From positions 1-64,000 of the forward strand of contig JAODAQ010000037.1 of assembly GCA_025463515.1 (NCBI GenBank): 64,000 bases of DNA, given 5' to 3'. The translations under genes were made by a program, and so were the position numbers. Shown here in pieces: positions 5,176 through 21,284 of the stretch. Origin of the DNA: Rhodoglobus sp. Lineage in GTDB: Bacteria; Actinomycetota; Actinomycetes; Actinomycetales; Microbacteriaceae. Each line of letters begins with the position of its first letter. Within the stretch, counting starts at the first letter, position 1. The notes beneath the pieces are model-generated. The model was not told the DNA's origin and searched no databases. It saw nothing but the letters and a program-made list of their open reading frames with translations.

Positions 5176-6171
5176 GTGACGGGAAATGCCACGCTCTACG
5201 ACGTCGCCCGGGCCGCGGGCGTCTCGCTCGCGACCGCGTCCCGATCCCTCAACGGCAGCACGCGCAAGGTCAACGAGGAGTACCGCCAGCGGGTCCTCGC
5301 CGCCGCTGAGCAGCTCGGCTACACCGCCAACGTCTCCGCCCAGGCCGTCGCCCGCGGCACCTCGGCGACCGTCGCCCTTCTCGTGAGCGACATCGCCGAC
5401 CCCTACTTCTCCGCGATCGCGGCCGGGGTCATCCGTGCCTCCGAGGAGCAGGGCCTCAATGTCACGATGGCGGTGACCGAGCGGGACGCGCAGCGCGAGC
5501 TCGAGCTGGTGCGCCTGCTGCGCGGCCAGCGGCCCCGGGTGCTCGTGCTCGCCGGGTCGCGCTTCACGGACGGCGCGGGCGACGAGCCACTCAGCGCCGA
5601 GCTGGAGTCTTTCACGGCGTCGGGCGGCCACGTGGTGCTCATCAGCCGTCACCGGCTCGCGTTCGACACCGTGGCGATCGACAACACGGGCGGGGCCGCT
5701 GCGCTCGCGGCATCCCTGGTCGATCTGGGCTACCGCGGGTTCGCGGTGCTGGCGGGCCCCGCGAACCTGGTGACAGCGCAGGACCGCGCCGCCGCCTTCA
5801 CCGGGGCACTCCCCGCCCCACCGGTGGCCGTCGTGCACGGCGCCTTCTCCCGTGACGCGGGCTACGCGGGGATGCTCGAGCTCATCGACCGGGGACTCGA
5901 CACCGTCGACCTGGTCTTCGCGGTCAACGACGTCATGGCCATCGGCGCCCTCGCCGCCCTCCGCGACCGGGGTATCGACGTCCCGGGGCGCATCGCCGTC
6001 GCCGGTTACGACGACATCTCCACCGCACGGGACGTGACCCCGGCCCTCACCACCGTGCGCGTCGACCTCGAGAGCGCGGGAGCCGCAGCCGTGGCGCTCG
6101 CGCTCGGCGACGGCGGCACCGTGCAGGTCGGCGCCGAGGTGGTCCTCCGCGCAAGCACCCCGCGGCGGTAG
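5176..6171 (+). CDS. LacI family transcriptional regulator
   Basis: GTG start; N-terminal HTH TLYDVARAAGVSLATASRSLNG, periplasmic-binding-like C-terminus. Confidence 0.93.
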   Translation: MTGNATLYDVARAAGVSLATASRSLNGSTRKVNEEYRQRVLAAAEQLGYTANVSAQAVARGTSATVALLVSDIADPYFSAIAAGVIRASEEQGLNVTMAVTERDAQRELELVRLLRGQRPRVLVLAGSRFTDGAGDEPLSAELESFTASGGHVVLISRHRLAFDTVAIDNTGGAAALAASLVDLGYRGFAVLAGPANLVTAQDRAAAFTGALPAPPVAVVHGAFSRDAGYAGMLELIDRGLDTVDLVFAVNDVMAIGALAALRDRGIDVPGRIAVAGYDDISTARDVTPALTTVRVDLESAGAAAVALALGDGGTVQVGAEVVLRASTPRR

Positions 6172-12175: not shown

Positions 12176-12952
12176 CTACTCGTACAGGTGCTGGTGCGAG
12201 TCGTCGAACTCGATGCGGTCTGCCGTGCATCCCACGAGGCCGAGGGTCACGCGGAGCAGCTGCGGCGGCAGCTCGGGCCCGGGCGGGGGTGTCGGGGCCA
12301 GCAGGCTGATCCCTCCGCCGCCGAGCAGGCTGCCCGTGACCGAGTCGACGTAGACGACGGCATTGCCCGTGAGCCGCATCTGCGTCGAGGTCGACACGAG
12401 CGACGGGCTCGTCGAGTTGCGCACGTCGAGCACGAAGTCGTCGATCACGAACTGGTCGGCCTCGATCTTGAAGACTGTCGCGCGCGAGCCGTCCGCGAGG
12501 GGAACCGTCACGAGCGAGAGCGACTTCAGCCCGTTGATCGCCAGCGACGAGCCGCCCAACTGCGCGGCAGGCAGGGTCATGACGGGCGCGTTCGGATCCT
12601 CTACCGGCTGGATGAGCGGGGCGCCGAGGCCCGAGTCGGTCTCGTCGCCCTGCCCGAGGAGGTTGCCGAGCGTGTCGCCGAGGTCGGTGAGCGGGTCCGA
12701 CGGGCCGGCCGGGTCGTCCGGGGTGGCGGGCGCGCACGACATCAGCAGCGGGATGCACAGGCTTTCCTCCGCCTGGGCGCTCGTGGCCCCCACCGCGGTG
12801 AGCGCGAGGCTGAGCACCGTCACAGCGGCGACGCTCTTGCGGGTCTTGCGCTTGCCGGTTACGACCGGCTCGGCACTAAAGGGAGTGCCCGCTTCTTCGG
12901 CGCCGCCGGGGGCTCCTCGATCGCGGCGACCTCCGCCTTCTTGGGCATCCAC
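12176..12952 (-). CDS. Secreted protein linked to DUF6230/DUF6114 genes (start uncertain)
   Basis: Hydrophobic signal-like segment KSVAAVTVLSLALTAVGATSAQAEE; no clear ATG after the DUF6114 stop, so a GTG inside the upstream gene is proposed. Confidence 0.55.
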   Translation of the reverse strand: MDAQEGGGRRDRGAPGGAEEAGTPFSAEPVVTGKRKTRKSVAAVTVLSLALTAVGATSAQAEESLCIPLLMSCAPATPDDPAGPSDPLTDLGDTLGNLLGQGDETDSGLGAPLIQPVEDPNAPVMTLPAAQLGGSSLAINGLKSLSLVTVPLADGSRATVFKIEADQFVIDDFVLDVRNSTSPSLVSTSTQMRLTGNAVVYVDSVTGSLLGGGGISLLAPTPPPGPELPPQLLRVTLGLVGCTADRIEFDDSHQHLYE

Positions 12953-13311
12953 GCGACGACGAGCACTCCGCCGACCGCGCCGAGCAGCATCCCGACGAAG
13001 AATCCGCCCAGGTTCACGCCGATGATCGAGTACACGGCCAGCACGAGCGCCAGCACTCCGTAGAAGATCCGATGGGCGGGCATGAGCACCGCGAGGACGC
13101 CGAGCAGCACCATCCCGACCGGGATGACCGTCGCCTGGAACCCCTCGATACCCAGCTGGACATGGATGTTGCCGATGTCGAGCTGCCCCGAGAAGAACAT
13201 CTCGATGCCGGCGAGGATGACGAGCAGCCCGCCCACGAAGGGGCGCTGCCGGGCCCACGCGCCGAAGGCGGACTGACGGATGCTGGCGATGGCCTTCCTC
13301 ATCAGAAGCAC
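12859..13311 (-). CDS. DUF6114 membrane protein
   Basis: RPFVGGLLVILAGIEMFFSGQLDIGNIHVQLGIEGFQATVIPVGMVLLGVLAVLMPAHRIFYGV. Confidence 0.8.
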   Translation of the reverse strand: MLLMRKAIASIRQSAFGAWARQRPFVGGLLVILAGIEMFFSGQLDIGNIHVQLGIEGFQATVIPVGMVLLGVLAVLMPAHRIFYGVLALVLAVYSIIGVNLGGFFVGMLLGAVGGVLVVAWMPKKAEVAAIEEPPAAPKKRALPLVPSRS

Positions 13312-13901
13312 GTCTTCGTGCCGTCGGTCAGCTCGACGTGCATGCCGTTGAGTGTGAAGACCGAGGCCTGAGTGCTCCAGGCCGTCTGCTGCAGGCCCGC
13401 GATGGAGATCGTGTCGGAGTCCTGAGCGAACGTGCCGGCCTCGCCCTTCGCGGCGGTGTTCACCGTCGAGGCATCCACGCCGATGCGGATATTGCCGAAG
13501 GTCGAGTCGCCCTTGAGGTCGGTCATGCCGATCTGCAGGTCGGTCGCGGTCGCGGGGTTGCCGCCGCCGCCCGCCGTGATCATGAGCCCGACGGTGCCCA
13601 TCGGGGTCTCGGTGACGACCGACTGGCAGAGGTCGGAGAGGCTCGCGGAGCCGATGTTCGCGATCGCGACCTGGTGCGGGTTGCCCGCCGTGTCGTTCGC
13701 GACGCCCGCATACTGCGAGAAGCCCGTGCCCTCGAGCTGCGAGGCGCTGATCTGGAACTGGCTGCCGGAGATGGCGAACGAGACCGGCACGGCGCCCTGG
13801 GCGACGCCGCCGAGAAGCACTGTGGAGACGAGCGCGACGGGTACCGCGGCGATGACAATGCGTCCTGCGTGACTGCCTGTGAATTTCTTGAAACTCGGCA
13901 T
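13302..13901 (-). CDS. DUF6230 secreted protein
   Basis: MPSFKKFTGSHAGRIVIAAVPVALVSTVLLGGVAQGAVPVSFAISGSQFQISASQLEGTGF. Confidence 0.8.
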   Translation of the reverse strand: MPSFKKFTGSHAGRIVIAAVPVALVSTVLLGGVAQGAVPVSFAISGSQFQISASQLEGTGFSQYAGVANDTAGNPHQVAIANIGSASLSDLCQSVVTETPMGTVGLMITAGGGGNPATATDLQIGMTDLKGDSTFGNIRIGVDASTVNTAAKGEAGTFAQDSDTISIAGLQQTAWSTQASVFTLNGMHVELTDGTKTCF

Positions 13902-14024
13902 TCTGATCCTCCTTGATCGGGCGGGTGCGACCGCTATTGACAACGGTCCCAATAGGAGGGACTGGGATACGGGTGAGTTATGACGCCGTTTTGCGAACTT
14001 TTTTTGGCGTGCTTAGGTGGTCGC

Positions 14025-14609
14025 ATGGAGGTCGCCCGCAGGACCAGGCTGAGCCCCGATGAGCGCCGTGCACAGCTCATCGCGCTCGGCGTCGGCGCGC
14101 TCGCATCCGGACCGCTCGAATCGCTCACCATCGAGAGCCTCGCGGCGGCGGCGGGCGTCTCGCGCGGGCTCGTGATCCACTACTTCGACACGAAGGACGG
14201 CCTGCACCGCGAGGTCGTCCGCACCGCCTGCGACGCCATGCTGCACGCCACCCAGCCGGACGACGAGCTCGAGCCCCTCGACCGGCTGCACGACACGCTC
14301 ACCCGCCTGGTGCGGTTCGTGCGCGACCACCGGCTCACCTTCCACTCCCTCGTGCGCGGCGCAGCCAGTGGCGACCCCGAGGTGCGCGAGCTCGTAGAGG
14401 AGACGCGGGCAGTGCAGACCGGATGGCTCGTTCGCGCGTTCCTCGAACTCGGCACGCCCGACTCCGAGCGGCTCCGCATCGCGCTGCGCTCGTGGGTGGC
14501 GTTCGCCGAGCAGACGCTCGTCGACGGGGCGCTGCATTCGGAGCTCTCGTCCGACGAGCTCGTGCTGTTCCTCGACCGCACTGCGAAAGCGGTCGTGGCC
14601 GCGGTCTAG
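14025..14609 (+). CDS. TetR family transcriptional regulator
   Basis: LESLTIESLAAAAGVSRGLVIHYFDTKDGL HTH. Confidence 0.9.
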   Translation: MEVARRTRLSPDERRAQLIALGVGALASGPLESLTIESLAAAAGVSRGLVIHYFDTKDGLHREVVRTACDAMLHATQPDDELEPLDRLHDTLTRLVRFVRDHRLTFHSLVRGAASGDPEVRELVEETRAVQTGWLVRAFLELGTPDSERLRIALRSWVAFAEQTLVDGALHSELSSDELVLFLDRTAKAVVAAV

Positions 14610-15064
14610 CTGAGGGCCTTCCAGTCGACTTCGACCCCGGCAGCCTCGAGCTCTCGGAGCAACTCCGACTTCCAAGCGCCATTGGCGTCGAACTTCGTGT
14701 ACAGCACGCCGTCGAAGTCAGTGGGCAGGGTGACGCCGTCAACGTACAGCGCACACACCCGGCTCCTGCCGAGCTTGCCGGTGAACCAGCCGAGTTCCAT
14801 GATTACGTTCTGTCTTGCGCGAGCCTCGCTGGCGCCGCCACTGAGCTGTACCTCGTCATCACCCGTGAGCAGGACCACAGCGTAGGAGACGTCGGAATAC
14901 CGCTCCAGTTTCTCGATGATCACCATGCCCTGGTTGGGCTGCTCGTGAAGGATGATCACTCGCTCATGGACAACGCTGCGCTCCAAAAATCGTGCGACAG
15001 TCTCTTTCACGCCCGAATTCCTACCGTGCACGAGAAATATTCCGTTGCTAGCCACCTCAACCAA
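14606..15064 (-). CDS. Stand-alone TIR-like nucleotide-binding protein (PF10137/Cap12-type)
   Basis: GIFLVHGRNSGVKETVARFLER...YSDVSYAVVLLTGDDE...ARARQNVIMELGWFTGKLGRSRVCALYVDGVTLPTDFDGVLYTKFD; TTG start inferred. Confidence 0.8.
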   Translation of the reverse strand: MVEVASNGIFLVHGRNSGVKETVARFLERSVVHERVIILHEQPNQGMVIIEKLERYSDVSYAVVLLTGDDEVQLSGGASEARARQNVIMELGWFTGKLGRSRVCALYVDGVTLPTDFDGVLYTKFDANGAWKSELLRELEAAGVEVDWKALS

Positions 15065-15677
15065 CCCTTGCCTCGTCTCCGCCGATCAGCCGCGACCTCA
15101 CCTGCGCCACCAGCTCCTCGAGCGGCGATGTACCGTCCAGTATCAGATCAGCATGGCGCATTGACGGATTCACGTACTGGTGGTGCATCGGCAAGACGGA
15201 CGCCGCCCAATGCCTACGCACCCAGGCCTCGTCGCGGCCTCGCTCACGAATATCTCGATCGAGCCGCCTCTCGAGACGTGTTCGATCATCGACGTCGAGA
15301 AAGACCCGGAGGCGGCTCGCGTCCCGAACGAGGTCGAGATGCAGTGCCAGATTGCCTTCCAGGACGAGAAGTGGTGCGACGGCGACCGCGTAGTAGCCCG
15401 ACCTCACCTGCTGAGTGAAGTCATAGGTCGGCACTCTGATCGACTCCTGGCTCTCTGCCGACACAAGAGCATAATTCAGCTCCGTGACATCGATGGCCTC
15501 GGGCGAGTCGAAGTTGATGTGCCGCCGCGATTCCCGATCCATGTGCTGGTTGTCGTTGAAGAACTGGTCCAAGGACAATACGAACGCTGTCGGAGCGAGC
15601 GTCTCCTCCAGGCGCCTCGCCAAGGAGGATTTTCCCGAGCAGGAACCACCCGCAACTGCGACGATATCGATGGGCAC
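15057..15677 (-). CDS. Uridine-kinase-like P-loop kinase
   Basis: MPIDIVAVAGGSCSGKSSLARRLEE Walker A; FNDNQHMDRESRRHINFDSPEAIDVTEL; overlaps TIR gene by 8 bp; GTG start. Confidence 0.8.
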   Translation of the reverse strand: MPIDIVAVAGGSCSGKSSLARRLEETLAPTAFVLSLDQFFNDNQHMDRESRRHINFDSPEAIDVTELNYALVSAESQESIRVPTYDFTQQVRSGYYAVAVAPLLVLEGNLALHLDLVRDASRLRVFLDVDDRTRLERRLDRDIRERGRDEAWVRRHWAASVLPMHHQYVNPSMRHADLILDGTSPLEELVAQVRSRLIGGDEARVG

Positions 15678-15728
15678 GCGTGCACAATAGCAAGGAAGAC
15701 TCGCCAACGATTGCTTGAGGAGAACATC

Positions 15729-18209
15729 GTGGTTGAACCTCTCGAGGTTGCCGCGATTTTCGCCATGTCCGAGCACCTCGTAGGCGCCTCTTGGTGGTCG
15801 AGCCACGACCTCGGAATGCGGCTCAGTGCAGAGTGGAACCGGGCGATCGGCCGTGCCGTGACGGTTGAGCGGCAGCACGTCGCCGACGAGGAGCGCACGG
15901 AAACTGCCCTGGAGGCTGCCGCCGTCTACCTGCGTGCGCACGGCCTGCGGCCAGAGTTCCTATTGGACATGGACATCGCGAGGGAATGGAAGTACGGGCT
16001 CGTGCGCCATATCGAATCCGAGACCGGGTACAGGCTGGCAGAGGTCCAGTTGGAAGCGGCGCGGCATGAGATGGTCAAGGCGATCCTCGAGCTCTACGTT
16101 CTGGATGCCCGCTTGACCTCGCCGGTCGCGCGGTGGGCGGAACGGCAGACCTCCGATCGTCTGACCACGCTGCTTCAGGGGCTGACGCGTGTGGACCAAC
16201 TCTCGCGGGCGATGCGCGAAGATCTCGCCACGGGTGCGTGGAACGAAGATGACCCACGACTCCGCCATCGCAGCATCCCTCGTCGGGCGGCGAAGACCAT
16301 CGGCCGCATCGACGAGCTTGATGCCTTGAGAACCCTTCTGCGACTCCACCGAACGCAAGGCCTTGTCGCAGCCGTGGCTGGACCATCCGGGGCGGGGAAG
16401 ACCCACATCGTCCGGGATCTGGTTGAGCGGTGCGCCGACGACTATGACGTTGTGTGGTGGTTGCCGCAAAAGACCGCAGACGGGTATTCGTTCGAGCTGC
16501 TGCGACTGGCGGAGAGCCTGGGGATCGAAGAGTCGGCCTCCACCATCCTCATGACCCTGTCCCGAGTGAAGAACCACCTTGATCGCCTGAGGTATCGATA
16601 CCTCATCGTCGTGGACGATGCGTACGACGAGAGCGTCGCCCACCTCCTCGGCGACAACGCGTGGGGGCACGTCCTTGTGACCACCCAGCGGTTGGACTTC
16701 CGCGCGGACGTGAGCTTCCCCCTAAGCGGGATCAGCATCGACGAGCTCGCCGGCCATCCCGAGTTCAATGACACCCAGCGTGAGCGGCTCGCCGTTCGAC
16801 GGCAGCCTGACGACACCATTCTCCCCATCGAGCTCATCCCGCTCATGGCCGCTCGGCCGACTCACCTCGAAGCCTTCGTCGGCCGGGGAGACGTTCTCAG
16901 CGGCCTCCGCCGCGCGGATGCTGATGCGGCTTTTCTCGCCTGCACTCTCTCTTTGCTCGCGACAGAGCAGGTGTCCCTCATGACGTTTCTGAGCACCCGG
17001 GCCTTTCGGAAGAGGTTCGGCCTCGGCTCGTTCGAGGTCCGCCGACGGGCTCGGGAGCTCTCGGCGATCCTCCACGCCTTCGGTCTTTCGAGATCTGTCG
17101 AGTCCGCGACCGTGAGCATGCACGACACCACTCGGTTGCGGATTCAGGAGCGAATGGACGACGCGACGGTCTCAGCCGCGACGGGCCTGCTCCTCGAGAG
17201 CCTCGTTGAGGTGCTGCCGTCCTCGGACTGGTTCGGGACCTCAGACGAGCGAATAGCTGCATTCGCGCTCCACGCCGAGCGAGTATTCGAACTCTCCCGG
17301 GAGTCGGCGCCGTCAAACAACTCGCTTCGAGCGGCCCTCGGATTGCGCCTCGGCGCTCACCTGAACGCGAAGGCAGACAGGACGTCGGCCCTTGTGGTTC
17401 TCGCTGAAACGGGCCGGCTGCTCGATTCGAGTGGCGTGGAGGGAATCCTCTGTCAGTTGGAGATAGCGCGAGCGACCCGGCACGTAGGCCGGCTCAAGGA
17501 CGCCTTCGACCAATACGTCTCACTGAGCACGAGGATCGACTGGGCGCATGACCCCGTGAATACTCTCAAGTTCATCGCCGGATTCGGGAAGGTCCTTCTC
17601 GACAGAGGAGACCACGGCCTCGCTCGCACCCTATGCGGCGCGCTGGTCCGCAGACTGGGCGACGACCACCCGAGTGCGCTGCCGGTGGTGAGCATCCTCG
17701 GGCGCGCTCAAGCACCGCGGCGACCCAGAGAGGCGCACACCACCTTTGCTAACGCCCTGGACGTGGCGGTACGGGAGCTGGGGGCGGACAATCAGGCCAC
17801 CGGATGGGCGCTCGATGATCTGGGCGCAATCACGGTAATGCTTAAGAAGGCACCGCAGGGAGAGAGCCTCCTCACGCAGGCGCTTGCCATCGAGACCGCC
17901 TCCAGTGGAACCCTCCATCCCAGGCGCGCCTGGACTCTGATGAACCTGGCGGTGGCGTCCCGCGGGACGAATCCCAGATTCTCGAGCGAATGCGCCGAGG
18001 AGGCCATCCAGCTGCAGCGGAGCGCCGTCCCCACCTCCAACCCCGATTTCATCAGGTTCGTCGCAGCGAATACTCTCCTCGACGGCTCGTCGCCACTGCC
18101 GCTGCAGGGTCTCAAAGGCTCCATGTCGTCGAGGGCGAATTCGACAGCGACCCGGTTCGCTGCCGCGCGCACGGTACGTCAGGTTTCACGTGAGATCGGA
18201 GTCAGATGA
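15729..18209 (+). CDS. STAND/NB-ARC-like NTPase with TPR-like C-terminus
   Basis: GTG start after GAGGAG; Walker A VAGPSGAGKTHIV, Walker B-like RYLIVVDDAYD; helical repeat C-terminus with ELGADNQATGWALDDLGAI and LHPRRAWTLMNLAVASR. Confidence 0.8.
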   Translation: MVEPLEVAAIFAMSEHLVGASWWSSHDLGMRLSAEWNRAIGRAVTVERQHVADEERTETALEAAAVYLRAHGLRPEFLLDMDIAREWKYGLVRHIESETGYRLAEVQLEAARHEMVKAILELYVLDARLTSPVARWAERQTSDRLTTLLQGLTRVDQLSRAMREDLATGAWNEDDPRLRHRSIPRRAAKTIGRIDELDALRTLLRLHRTQGLVAAVAGPSGAGKTHIVRDLVERCADDYDVVWWLPQKTADGYSFELLRLAESLGIEESASTILMTLSRVKNHLDRLRYRYLIVVDDAYDESVAHLLGDNAWGHVLVTTQRLDFRADVSFPLSGISIDELAGHPEFNDTQRERLAVRRQPDDTILPIELIPLMAARPTHLEAFVGRGDVLSGLRRADADAAFLACTLSLLATEQVSLMTFLSTRAFRKRFGLGSFEVRRRARELSAILHAFGLSRSVESATVSMHDTTRLRIQERMDDATVSAATGLLLESLVEVLPSSDWFGTSDERIAAFALHAERVFELSRESAPSNNSLRAALGLRLGAHLNAKADRTSALVVLAETGRLLDSSGVEGILCQLEIARATRHVGRLKDAFDQYVSLSTRIDWAHDPVNTLKFIAGFGKVLLDRGDHGLARTLCGALVRRLGDDHPSALPVVSILGRAQAPRRPREAHTTFANALDVAVRELGADNQATGWALDDLGAITVMLKKAPQGESLLTQALAIETASSGTLHPRRAWTLMNLAVASRGTNPRFSSECAEEAIQLQRSAVPTSNPDFIRFVAANTLLDGSSPLPLQGLKGSMSSRANSTATRFAAARTVRQVSREIGVR

Positions 18210-19084
18210 AGGTCGTGTATCTCGGGAGCGCCAAAATCGACATCGAGACCGCCATCCCCTCCAACTTTCCCACCCTCGGCGATGTCTACGAGCTCGGGCA
18301 CATCAAGGTCGCGGTGGGCGGCACCGCGGGAGGCTTCGCCGAGTCGGCCGGCCACCTGTTCGAGGAGTTCGAAGCGATTGCGGCGATTGGTGACGACCGT
18401 TGGTCCGATGAGATCGAGGCCCACCTCCGCCGTCACAGCGCCCGCGCTCATCTGCACACGATCGAGGGGACGCCGAATGCCACGGTGCTCGTGGTGAGAT
18501 CCCAGGATGGAGGCGGCGCGCCGTCCCGCCGGCTCCTCGTCTCGTCCCTTGTCTCCCCGCACAGGCATCTCACCGCCGACATTGTCCGGGAGTACGCCGA
18601 TGTCATCCATAGCGCCGACGTCTTCATCACCGACACCTATTTCCTTCAATCGCTCACGGCCACCGAGGGGCTTCGGGCGGCGTTGGAGATCGCCCGGCCT
18701 AGCGCCGCAGTGTCCGTGCTAGACCTGTTGCCCCATTCGCTCCCTGATACGCACACCCTCGCGCAGGTCGAGCCGCTCATCGAGCTTGCCGACGTGATCG
18801 TCTCCGAGGCACGCACACTCGTCGGGCTCGGCGCGGGCAGGTGGGATCCCGCCCCGCAAGATCAGGAGGACCTGATCGCTCGCGCTCGCGAGATCGTCCA
18901 CCGATACGGGGACTCGAGCACGTGGATAATCCGTTACGGGGCGAGCCATATTGAGAACACCGCGGTCAAGCAGCCCGGCCGCGACTGGATCGAATACTGC
19001 TCGCTATACCGCCACGCGGACAAGCGCGGCTACGGAGACAAACTTCTTGCCTCAGACCTTCGCGCCTTCATCAAGAGCGACTAA
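18206..19084 (+). CDS. PfkB/ribokinase-like carbohydrate or nucleoside kinase
   Basis: VAVGGTAGGFAESAGHLFEEF; C-terminal RGYGDKLLA in place of the usual DTTGAGD; ATGA overlap with STAND gene. Confidence 0.75.
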   Translation: MKVVYLGSAKIDIETAIPSNFPTLGDVYELGHIKVAVGGTAGGFAESAGHLFEEFEAIAAIGDDRWSDEIEAHLRRHSARAHLHTIEGTPNATVLVVRSQDGGGAPSRRLLVSSLVSPHRHLTADIVREYADVIHSADVFITDTYFLQSLTATEGLRAALEIARPSAAVSVLDLLPHSLPDTHTLAQVEPLIELADVIVSEARTLVGLGAGRWDPAPQDQEDLIARAREIVHRYGDSSTWIIRYGASHIENTAVKQPGRDWIEYCSLYRHADKRGYGDKLLASDLRAFIKSD

Positions 19085-19117
19085 CCGAGGCGGCTCGAGA
19101 GATCATAGGATGCACCC

Positions 19118-19582
19118 GTGGACCCAATTCATGTAGCTGTGCTCTGGTTCGTAGCGGAAGACGGAAGCCTGCTCATCGCGCAGCGCGCGTTCGACAAGAA
19201 GCAGGACCCGGGCGTCTGGGGGCCGTCCGTAACCGGCAAGCGCGAGCCCGGCGAGACCATCAATGAAACGCTCGCGCGCGAGGTGAGCGAGGAGCTGGGC
19301 ATCACCGCCGATGCCTATTCTCCTGCGCACCTGTTCGACCTGTCTTTCGATCATCCGGACGGGAGGGGACGCCTCTTCTCCATCTATGCGGCAAGCTTCG
19401 CCAAGTCGCAATCCGGGCTCGTCCGACTCGCCGACGGGGAGGTCGAGTCGTTCGGGTGGAGCTCGCTCGAGACACTCGAACGGTGGGTGGCCGCCCAGCC
19501 CGAGACTCTGGTCCCGTCAGCCGCCAAGATCTGGCCGGCGACATTCCAGTCGCTTCGAACCGGCGCCTGGAGAGCGATCTAG
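19118..19582 (+). CDS. NUDIX hydrolase
   Basis: GTG start; GKREPGETINETLAREVSEELGI Nudix box. Confidence 0.92.
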   Translation: MDPIHVAVLWFVAEDGSLLIAQRAFDKKQDPGVWGPSVTGKREPGETINETLAREVSEELGITADAYSPAHLFDLSFDHPDGRGRLFSIYAASFAKSQSGLVRLADGEVESFGWSSLETLERWVAAQPETLVPSAAKIWPATFQSLRTGAWRAI

Positions 19583-20058
19583 GCCTCGCCCTTGTTGCGC
19601 TTGCGCGCCACTCGCGGCGCTCGGGCACCCAGGAACGAGCGGCTCGACGAGACGTCGAAGCCCTGCGCCAGCGCCTCGCGGCCGATGAGCATCCGGAATC
19701 CCATCTGGTCGCGGTTGGTGAGAGTGACCTCGGCGACGACCTCGCGGCCGACGAGCACGAGCCTCATGAGCACGACGAAGCGCTCCTCGACGTGGCCGGA
19801 GGAACTGCGCACCTTGCGGATGTCGTGCACCGGGCTCTCTACGACGATCGCGTCCTCGGTGGAGCGCTGCCAGGGCCGCACCGTGAACCTCGCCCACGCG
19901 GCGCCGTCACGGTCGAACGCCTCGATGTCGTAGGCGTGGATCGAGGAGGTCTGGGCGCCGGTGTCGAGCTTCGCCTTGATCCAGGGCACCCCGATCTCGG
20001 GCAGCTGCACCCACTCGCGCCACCCGGCGAGGGTGCTTGAATGGGAGCGCTCGTTCAC
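19579..20058 (-). CDS. Retropepsin-like aspartic protease/ATP-dependent zinc protease family (RimK-associated)
   Basis: REWVQLPEIGVPWIKAKLDTGAQTSSIHA; NRDQMGFRMLIGREAL. Confidence 0.85.
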   Translation of the reverse strand: MNERSHSSTLAGWREWVQLPEIGVPWIKAKLDTGAQTSSIHAYDIEAFDRDGAAWARFTVRPWQRSTEDAIVVESPVHDIRKVRSSSGHVEERFVVLMRLVLVGREVVAEVTLTNRDQMGFRMLIGREALAQGFDVSSSRSFLGARAPRVARKRNKGEA

Positions 20059-20084
20059 TGCTCCATCTTGTCAGGGCCCACACC

Positions 20085-21284
<1,200 letters not shown>

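Follow-up and report, generated by a model that had tools for sequence, protein, structure and literature searches.

A block of about 5 kb (positions 14606-19582) in one actinobacterial genome carries five intact open reading frames with predicted conflict and nucleotide-enzyme domains, and resembles a phage-defence locus with a gene combination not described before. It is read here, tentatively and with chances falling just short of balanced, as an NLR-like NADase defence locus, probably directed against phages, to which enzymes with a putative role on nucleosides and ADP-ribose are attached. A joint function of the five genes is a candidate only, the complete set having been found together at no other inspected locus (12 TIR, 40 STAND and 38 PfkB loci). 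The source is a single draft assembly in 78 contigs (completeness 95.39, contamination 4), and the window referred to below is the whole stretch of 64,000 nucleotides that was analysed.

Organization of the Island

The five frames and the domains named for them in the original prediction were all recovered by an ORF check and Pfam searches (Table 1); the strength of the profile matches, together with intact motifs and coupled gene overlaps, sets them well apart from chance ORFs.

Table 1. Genes and intergenic region of the island, with coordinates in the window.
Feature	Position	Strand	Characteristics
TIR	14606..15064	-	Bare PF10137 domain, about 149-152 aa, predicted NADase; start TTG 15064 or GTG 15055
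Uridine/cytidine-kinase-like P-loop kinase	15057..15677	-	206 aa; PF00485 2.1e-29; upstream of the TIR gene, translationally close to it
Divergent intergenic region, 51 bp	15678..15728		AGGAG ahead of the STAND GTG; TATTGT ahead of the kinase GTG
STAND	15729..18209	+	826 aa; helical N-terminus, NB-ARC-like NTPase, TPR C-terminus
Divergent PfkB kinase	18206..19084	+	292 aa; PF00294 1.1e-9; GYGD motif
NUDIX	19118..19582	+	154 aa; PF00293 2.6e-16; exact Nudix box GKREPGETINETLAREVSEELGI

The STAND and PfkB reading frames are joined by an ATGA overlap, and the kinase and TIR genes overlap by 8 nt when TTG 15064 is taken as the TIR start rather than the alternative GTG. For STAND, GTG 15729 is preferred as the start over ATG 15765, since AGGAG lies 6 nt ahead of the GTG. 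No clear Shine-Dalgarno sequence precedes the kinase GTG; TATTGT, located by eye 6 nt upstream, would be compatible with a leaderless kinase message. No sigma-70-type promoter was found by a consensus scan of the 51-bp divergent region.

Foreign Composition and Distribution in Relatives

The GC content of the island is 0.637 vs 0.701 in the rest of the window. GC3 values are 0.765 for TIR, 0.729 for the kinase, 0.779 for STAND, 0.812 for PfkB and 0.800 for NUDIX, against 0.89-0.955 in the TetR, RimB, RimK, GntR and nearby MFS genes, and an earlier remark, made by eye, that codon usage in the island is less GC3-biased than in its neighbours was thus borne out by measurement. The reference mean of 0.904 was calculated over 37 ORFs chosen at GC3 > 0.80 and is therefore biased upward. 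STAND occurs in 1 of 245 genomes of the family, the host itself, and is missing from the other 244; likewise, the TIR protein was found in the host and in none of its 14 congeners (1/15 genus genomes). On the basis of the low GC and GC3 and of these absences, the island looks horizontally acquired. TIR was present in 7 of 276 sampled genomes and PfkB in 2 of 395 genomes of the class. Close uridine-kinase-type genes are also rare in the class (E < 1e-14 in 2 of 276 sampled genomes); distant kinase relatives occur in the genus at 1e-6 to 1e-9, with a second copy in the host's own genome at 4e-11, so that only the island's form of the kinase is foreign. When the island DNA was compared with plasmids, matches were confined to the TIR gene.

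The TIR Protein

In a Pfam profile search the TIR protein matched PF10137 with 115.2 bits (E 2.2e-33; curated cut-off 24.7), which agrees with the PF10137/Cap12 type originally proposed and places it in the Cap12/PycTIR family. It contains the motif NVIMELG and, in an alignment with the TIR-STING chain 7un8, retains the four NAD-pocket residues of TIR-STING, R78, N80, E84 and D110, of which E84 is catalytic (PMC9402430). This assignment presumes that the numbering of the chain and that of the paper differ by 8, with which all four residue identities agree. CBASS Cap12 (TIR-STING) and PycTIR share with it the Pfam TIR family and the NAD-pocket residues, but the island has no STING domain, and no CBASS or Pycsar CD-NTase or nucleotide cyclase was found in the five island genes or in ten flanking and nearby genes.

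The TIR domain also matches PDC-S35, a PADLOC candidate single-gene defence system with a PF10137 TIR, at 8.5e-62. This match covers profile positions 117-262 of 264 only, and with 159 codons the open frame is too short to include the N-terminal region, which is about 115 aa in length. Relatives of the protein are common on plasmids (1141 records); plasmid members are 49-57% identical to it, mostly about 300 aa long and preceded by a small ORF, whereas the partner in the island is a udk-like kinase. In Pseudomonas, Azospirillum, Blastomonas and Klebsiella, an ORF of ~95 aa abuts or overlaps the upstream end of the plasmid TIR relative (about 5255-5565 in the locus sequences), and the two are possibly a two-gene unit. 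On the island TIR, a bare domain, no recruiting domain matching described coupling domains was found.

The STAND Protein

A STAND NTPase with helical repeats had been predicted, and Pfam identified an AAA_16/NB-ARC-like NTPase extending from residue about 180-190 to about 330 together with TPR_12 (E 1e-10); Walker A and Walker B motifs are present. Residues about 1-180 are predicted to be helical with low confidence (pLDDT 48.5 when modelled alone), and neither a TIR nor a DNA-binding domain was detected in the protein by Pfam search. Its score against NF040586 (FxSxx_TPR; 2.2e-31, 109.1 bits) is below the cut-off of 300, and PADLOC returned weak matches to DpdH and mad8 only, the Avs (AVAST) models giving no match. 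A scan of viral contigs found no relative, and tblastn against plasmids gave one match, in the NTPase part only.

The relatives of STAND match in the NTPase and TPR parts only. All 34 close relatives carry TPRs, a fused N-terminal TIR_2 is present in 15 and EAD1 in 4. The actinobacterial TIR-(AP-ATPase/NB-ARC)-TPR proteins, including the FxsT type (NF040586; PMC7159879), resemble the island protein in NTPase and TPR homology and in the TIR of those 15 relatives; they differ in that the island TIR matches another TIR family and is encoded by a separate, divergent gene, that the STAND N-terminus is helical (as predicted with low confidence) with no fused TIR, and that PfkB, NUDIX and the kinase are added. 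Because STAND is devoid of the TIR domain that 15 of 34 relatives possess, the adjacent TIR gene is consistent with a split form of the known fusion; TIR and this kind of STAND are a known pairing, here seemingly divided between two genes.

The Kinases and the NUDIX Protein

The kinase on the minus strand belongs to the uridine-kinase family, as originally proposed (PF00485; Table 1). Its matches to udk models (1.2e-44) stay below both equivalog cut-offs (152.3 bits vs 180 and 137.2 vs 220.3), and the closest solved chains are those of T. thermophilus uridine kinase (3.3e-32). An identity as nicotinamide-riboside kinase was rejected (1e-5 vs 3e-32 for uridine kinase). Walker A, the FDSPEAID and YDF segments and the RRLDRDIRERGR lid are kept, and from these motifs the protein would be expected to work as a PRK/URK-family kinase. 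The base-contact Tyr/His of the T. thermophilus sequences (3asy, 3w8r) is Gln in the island kinase, so that its base preference may differ.

The PfkB and NUDIX assignments (PF00294 and PF00293) also held (Table 1). In PfkB the GxGD motif is present as GYGD, and its predicted model (pLDDT 84) has ribokinase, adenosine kinase and pseudouridine kinase as nearest folds, with a TM of about 0.77 for the ribokinase fold; against the ribokinase equivalog it remains below the cut-off (26.9 bits vs 341). The NUDIX protein carries an exact box, GX5EX7REUXEEXGU, at residue 40. Isopentenyl-diphosphate isomerase was considered for it and rejected (61.6 bits vs an equivalog cut-off of 127).

Recurrence of the Gene Set

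Scanning of the whole genome collection was carried out with PfkB only, and TIR, the kinase, STAND and NUDIX were surveyed in genome samples. The PfkB scan retrieved 38 loci, all from the Actinomadura group and with 28-35% identity, and plasmid tblastn with PfkB gave no match. These loci hold the closest PfkB relatives found and, as in the island, a NUDIX gene is adjacent in 38/38, along with a HIT-motif protein (38/38; labelled by eye from HAHWH, with no Pfam match). They differ from the island in gene order (NUDIX then PfkB), in their NUDIX protein, which is 30% identical to that of the island over 66 residues, and in their flanks, where those examined hold no relatives of TIR, the udk-like kinase or STAND. 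One of the clusters adjoins a squalene-hopene-cyclase-like gene. Since the 38 loci are probably one lineage, with another gene order and a NUDIX of 30% identity, the recurrent adjacency is modest evidence for a functional PfkB-NUDIX pair.

PfkB-NUDIX is the only recurrent pair among the inspected loci. No kinase relative was found in 12 TIR loci (six actinomycete, six plasmid), and around the 40 closest STAND NTPases there were no PfkB, NUDIX, kinase or TIR relatives at E < 1e-3. A conserved five-gene system is therefore not supported, TIR-kinase and STAND-PfkB/NUDIX pairs being present at none of the inspected loci. The original prediction had named as evidence against it a lack of co-occurrence among the homologs: this is what was found for the whole set, for kinase-TIR and for STAND-PfkB, but not for PfkB-NUDIX. 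It did not recognise the combination as a named system, and none of the papers searched describes it; nor did they mention any coupling of nucleoside kinases to TIR NADases.

Proposed Mechanism and Alternative Explanations

In the defence model, as suggested by the protein families, the TPR part of STAND would sense an invader or stress and the NTPase would oligomerise, and the helical N-terminus would recruit or activate the separately encoded bare TIR. The latter would cleave NAD+ to ADP-ribose species and nicotinamide, with the result that growth stops or a signal is made, and the island would hold a form of the actinobacterial TIR-(AP-ATPase)-TPR proteins divided over separate genes. NUDIX could cut ADP-ribose or another NDP compound, PfkB could act as a ribose or nucleoside kinase, and both together with the udk-like kinase could process or clear nucleoside and ADP-ribose products; these roles are proposed from the PfkB fold and from the known connection between Nudix domains and conflict systems based on NAD (PMC7159879). 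Such clearing might limit self-damage or keep a phage from rebuilding NAD+, and is the weakest step of the model. It would make sense in view of NARP1, by which phages can rebuild NAD+ from ADP-ribose (PMC12774641). The full scheme, in which a STAND-activated bare TIR NADase is combined with a NUDIX-PfkB-kinase set that denies phages NAD+ rebuilding, or that makes a new nucleoside-derived signal, is considered unlikely. If true, a bacterial TIR-NLR would here be split into separate sensor and NADase genes and have product-handling enzymes of its own, which would make testable whether immune loci encode product-clearing enzymes that block NAD+ rebuilding by phages.

The defence reading is supported by the PF10137/PDC-S35-like TIR with its four NAD-pocket residues, by the TIR_2 or EAD1 domains of STAND relatives and the precedent of actinobacterial TIR-AP-ATPase-TPR effectors (Kaur et al., 2020; PMC7159879), and by the foreign composition, the absence from relatives and the wide occurrence of TIR relatives on plasmids. 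The same work described small domains, helical for the most part, through which core proteins are coupled to the effector products of neighbouring genes (Kaur et al., 2020; PMC7159879). Also in favour of the defence reading are the STAND-PfkB overlap, the divergent starts 51 bp apart, the PfkB-NUDIX adjacency in 38 loci, the nucleoside-kinase-like fold of PfkB and the rebuilding of NAD+ by phages. Against joint defence count the lack of a second locus with the set and of any recurrence of kinase-TIR or STAND-PfkB among the inspected loci, the position of TIR and STAND on opposite strands with no common recruiting domain detected, the matches of the TIRs fused to STAND relatives, which are to TIR_2 (the island TIR matches PF10137), and the lack of defence genes among ten flanking and nearby genes.

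A one-off accretion is a serious rival to joint defence. The kinase-TIR pair (minus strand) and the STAND-PfkB-NUDIX operon (plus strand) would then be independent cassettes that came to adjoin within one acquired block, and the failure of the two units to co-occur at any inspected locus, the Actinomadura PfkB-NUDIX pairs without TIR, udk-like kinase or STAND, and the TIR relatives found without a kinase all fit this account; it is nevertheless doubtful, if of appreciable probability, given divergent starts only 51 bp apart, similar GC3 in both units and the known association of TIR domains with this STAND type. Rather improbable is a regulated metabolic island in which STAND, acting on transcription or on metabolism, controls nucleoside or sugar salvage by PfkB, NUDIX and the kinase and TIR is incidental. 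Small-molecule enzymes make up three of the five genes, STAND is coupled to one of them (PfkB) by ATGA, and bacterial STAND NTPases have been studied mostly as transcriptional regulators (PMC7159879), but this STAND has no detected DNA-binding domain, its nearest relatives bear TIR or EAD1 at the N-terminus, a transporter is missing from the island, and the conserved NADase pocket of TIR fits salvage poorly. A very low probability is assigned to TIR being a truncated, inactive remnant of the PDC-S35 type, with the other genes a passenger block with no immune function: all four pocket residues are retained, the frame has no internal stop, its start adjoins the kinase stop, and amoeba TirC, a small TIR protein, is an active NADase (PMC13142454), even though PDC-S35 profiles match in their C-terminal half only, the frame is too short for the N-terminal part and plasmid relatives are mostly twice as long, at about 300 aa.

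Putative Insertion Site and Flanking Genes

RimB, the right flank, is encoded in 10 of 13 genus genomes, and RimK adjoins it in all 10. Neither island nor left-flank proteins occur beside rimB in four genus genomes inspected more widely. In two of these four, the rimB side away from rimK holds quite different genes, named by eye as cysK in one genome and as an MMPL-type transporter plus a lysozyme-like gene in the second, which suggests a variable site. The island has only short, diverged flanking repeats and no att-like pair, and no tRNA, tmRNA or known RNA family was found within the window. CTAG is present at both island edges (14606-14609 and 19579-19582), where it forms the convergent stop-stop overlaps TetR/TIR and NUDIX/RimB; it was set aside as an insertion footprint because convergent genes elsewhere in the window (9972 and 22751) end in similar overlaps, and may reflect a general tendency of this genome.

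The ten flanking and nearby genes matched no defence family apart from generic cross-matches to oxidoreductases and ABC ATPases; the block thus does not belong to a larger defence island, and an association with such islands, which the original prediction had proposed to look for, was not found. On the left flank, a DUF6114 and DUF6230 gene pair (12859-13952) adjoins the TetR gene, and on the right the RimK-type ATP-grasp protein (20037-21284) bears a C-terminal TrkA_C domain.
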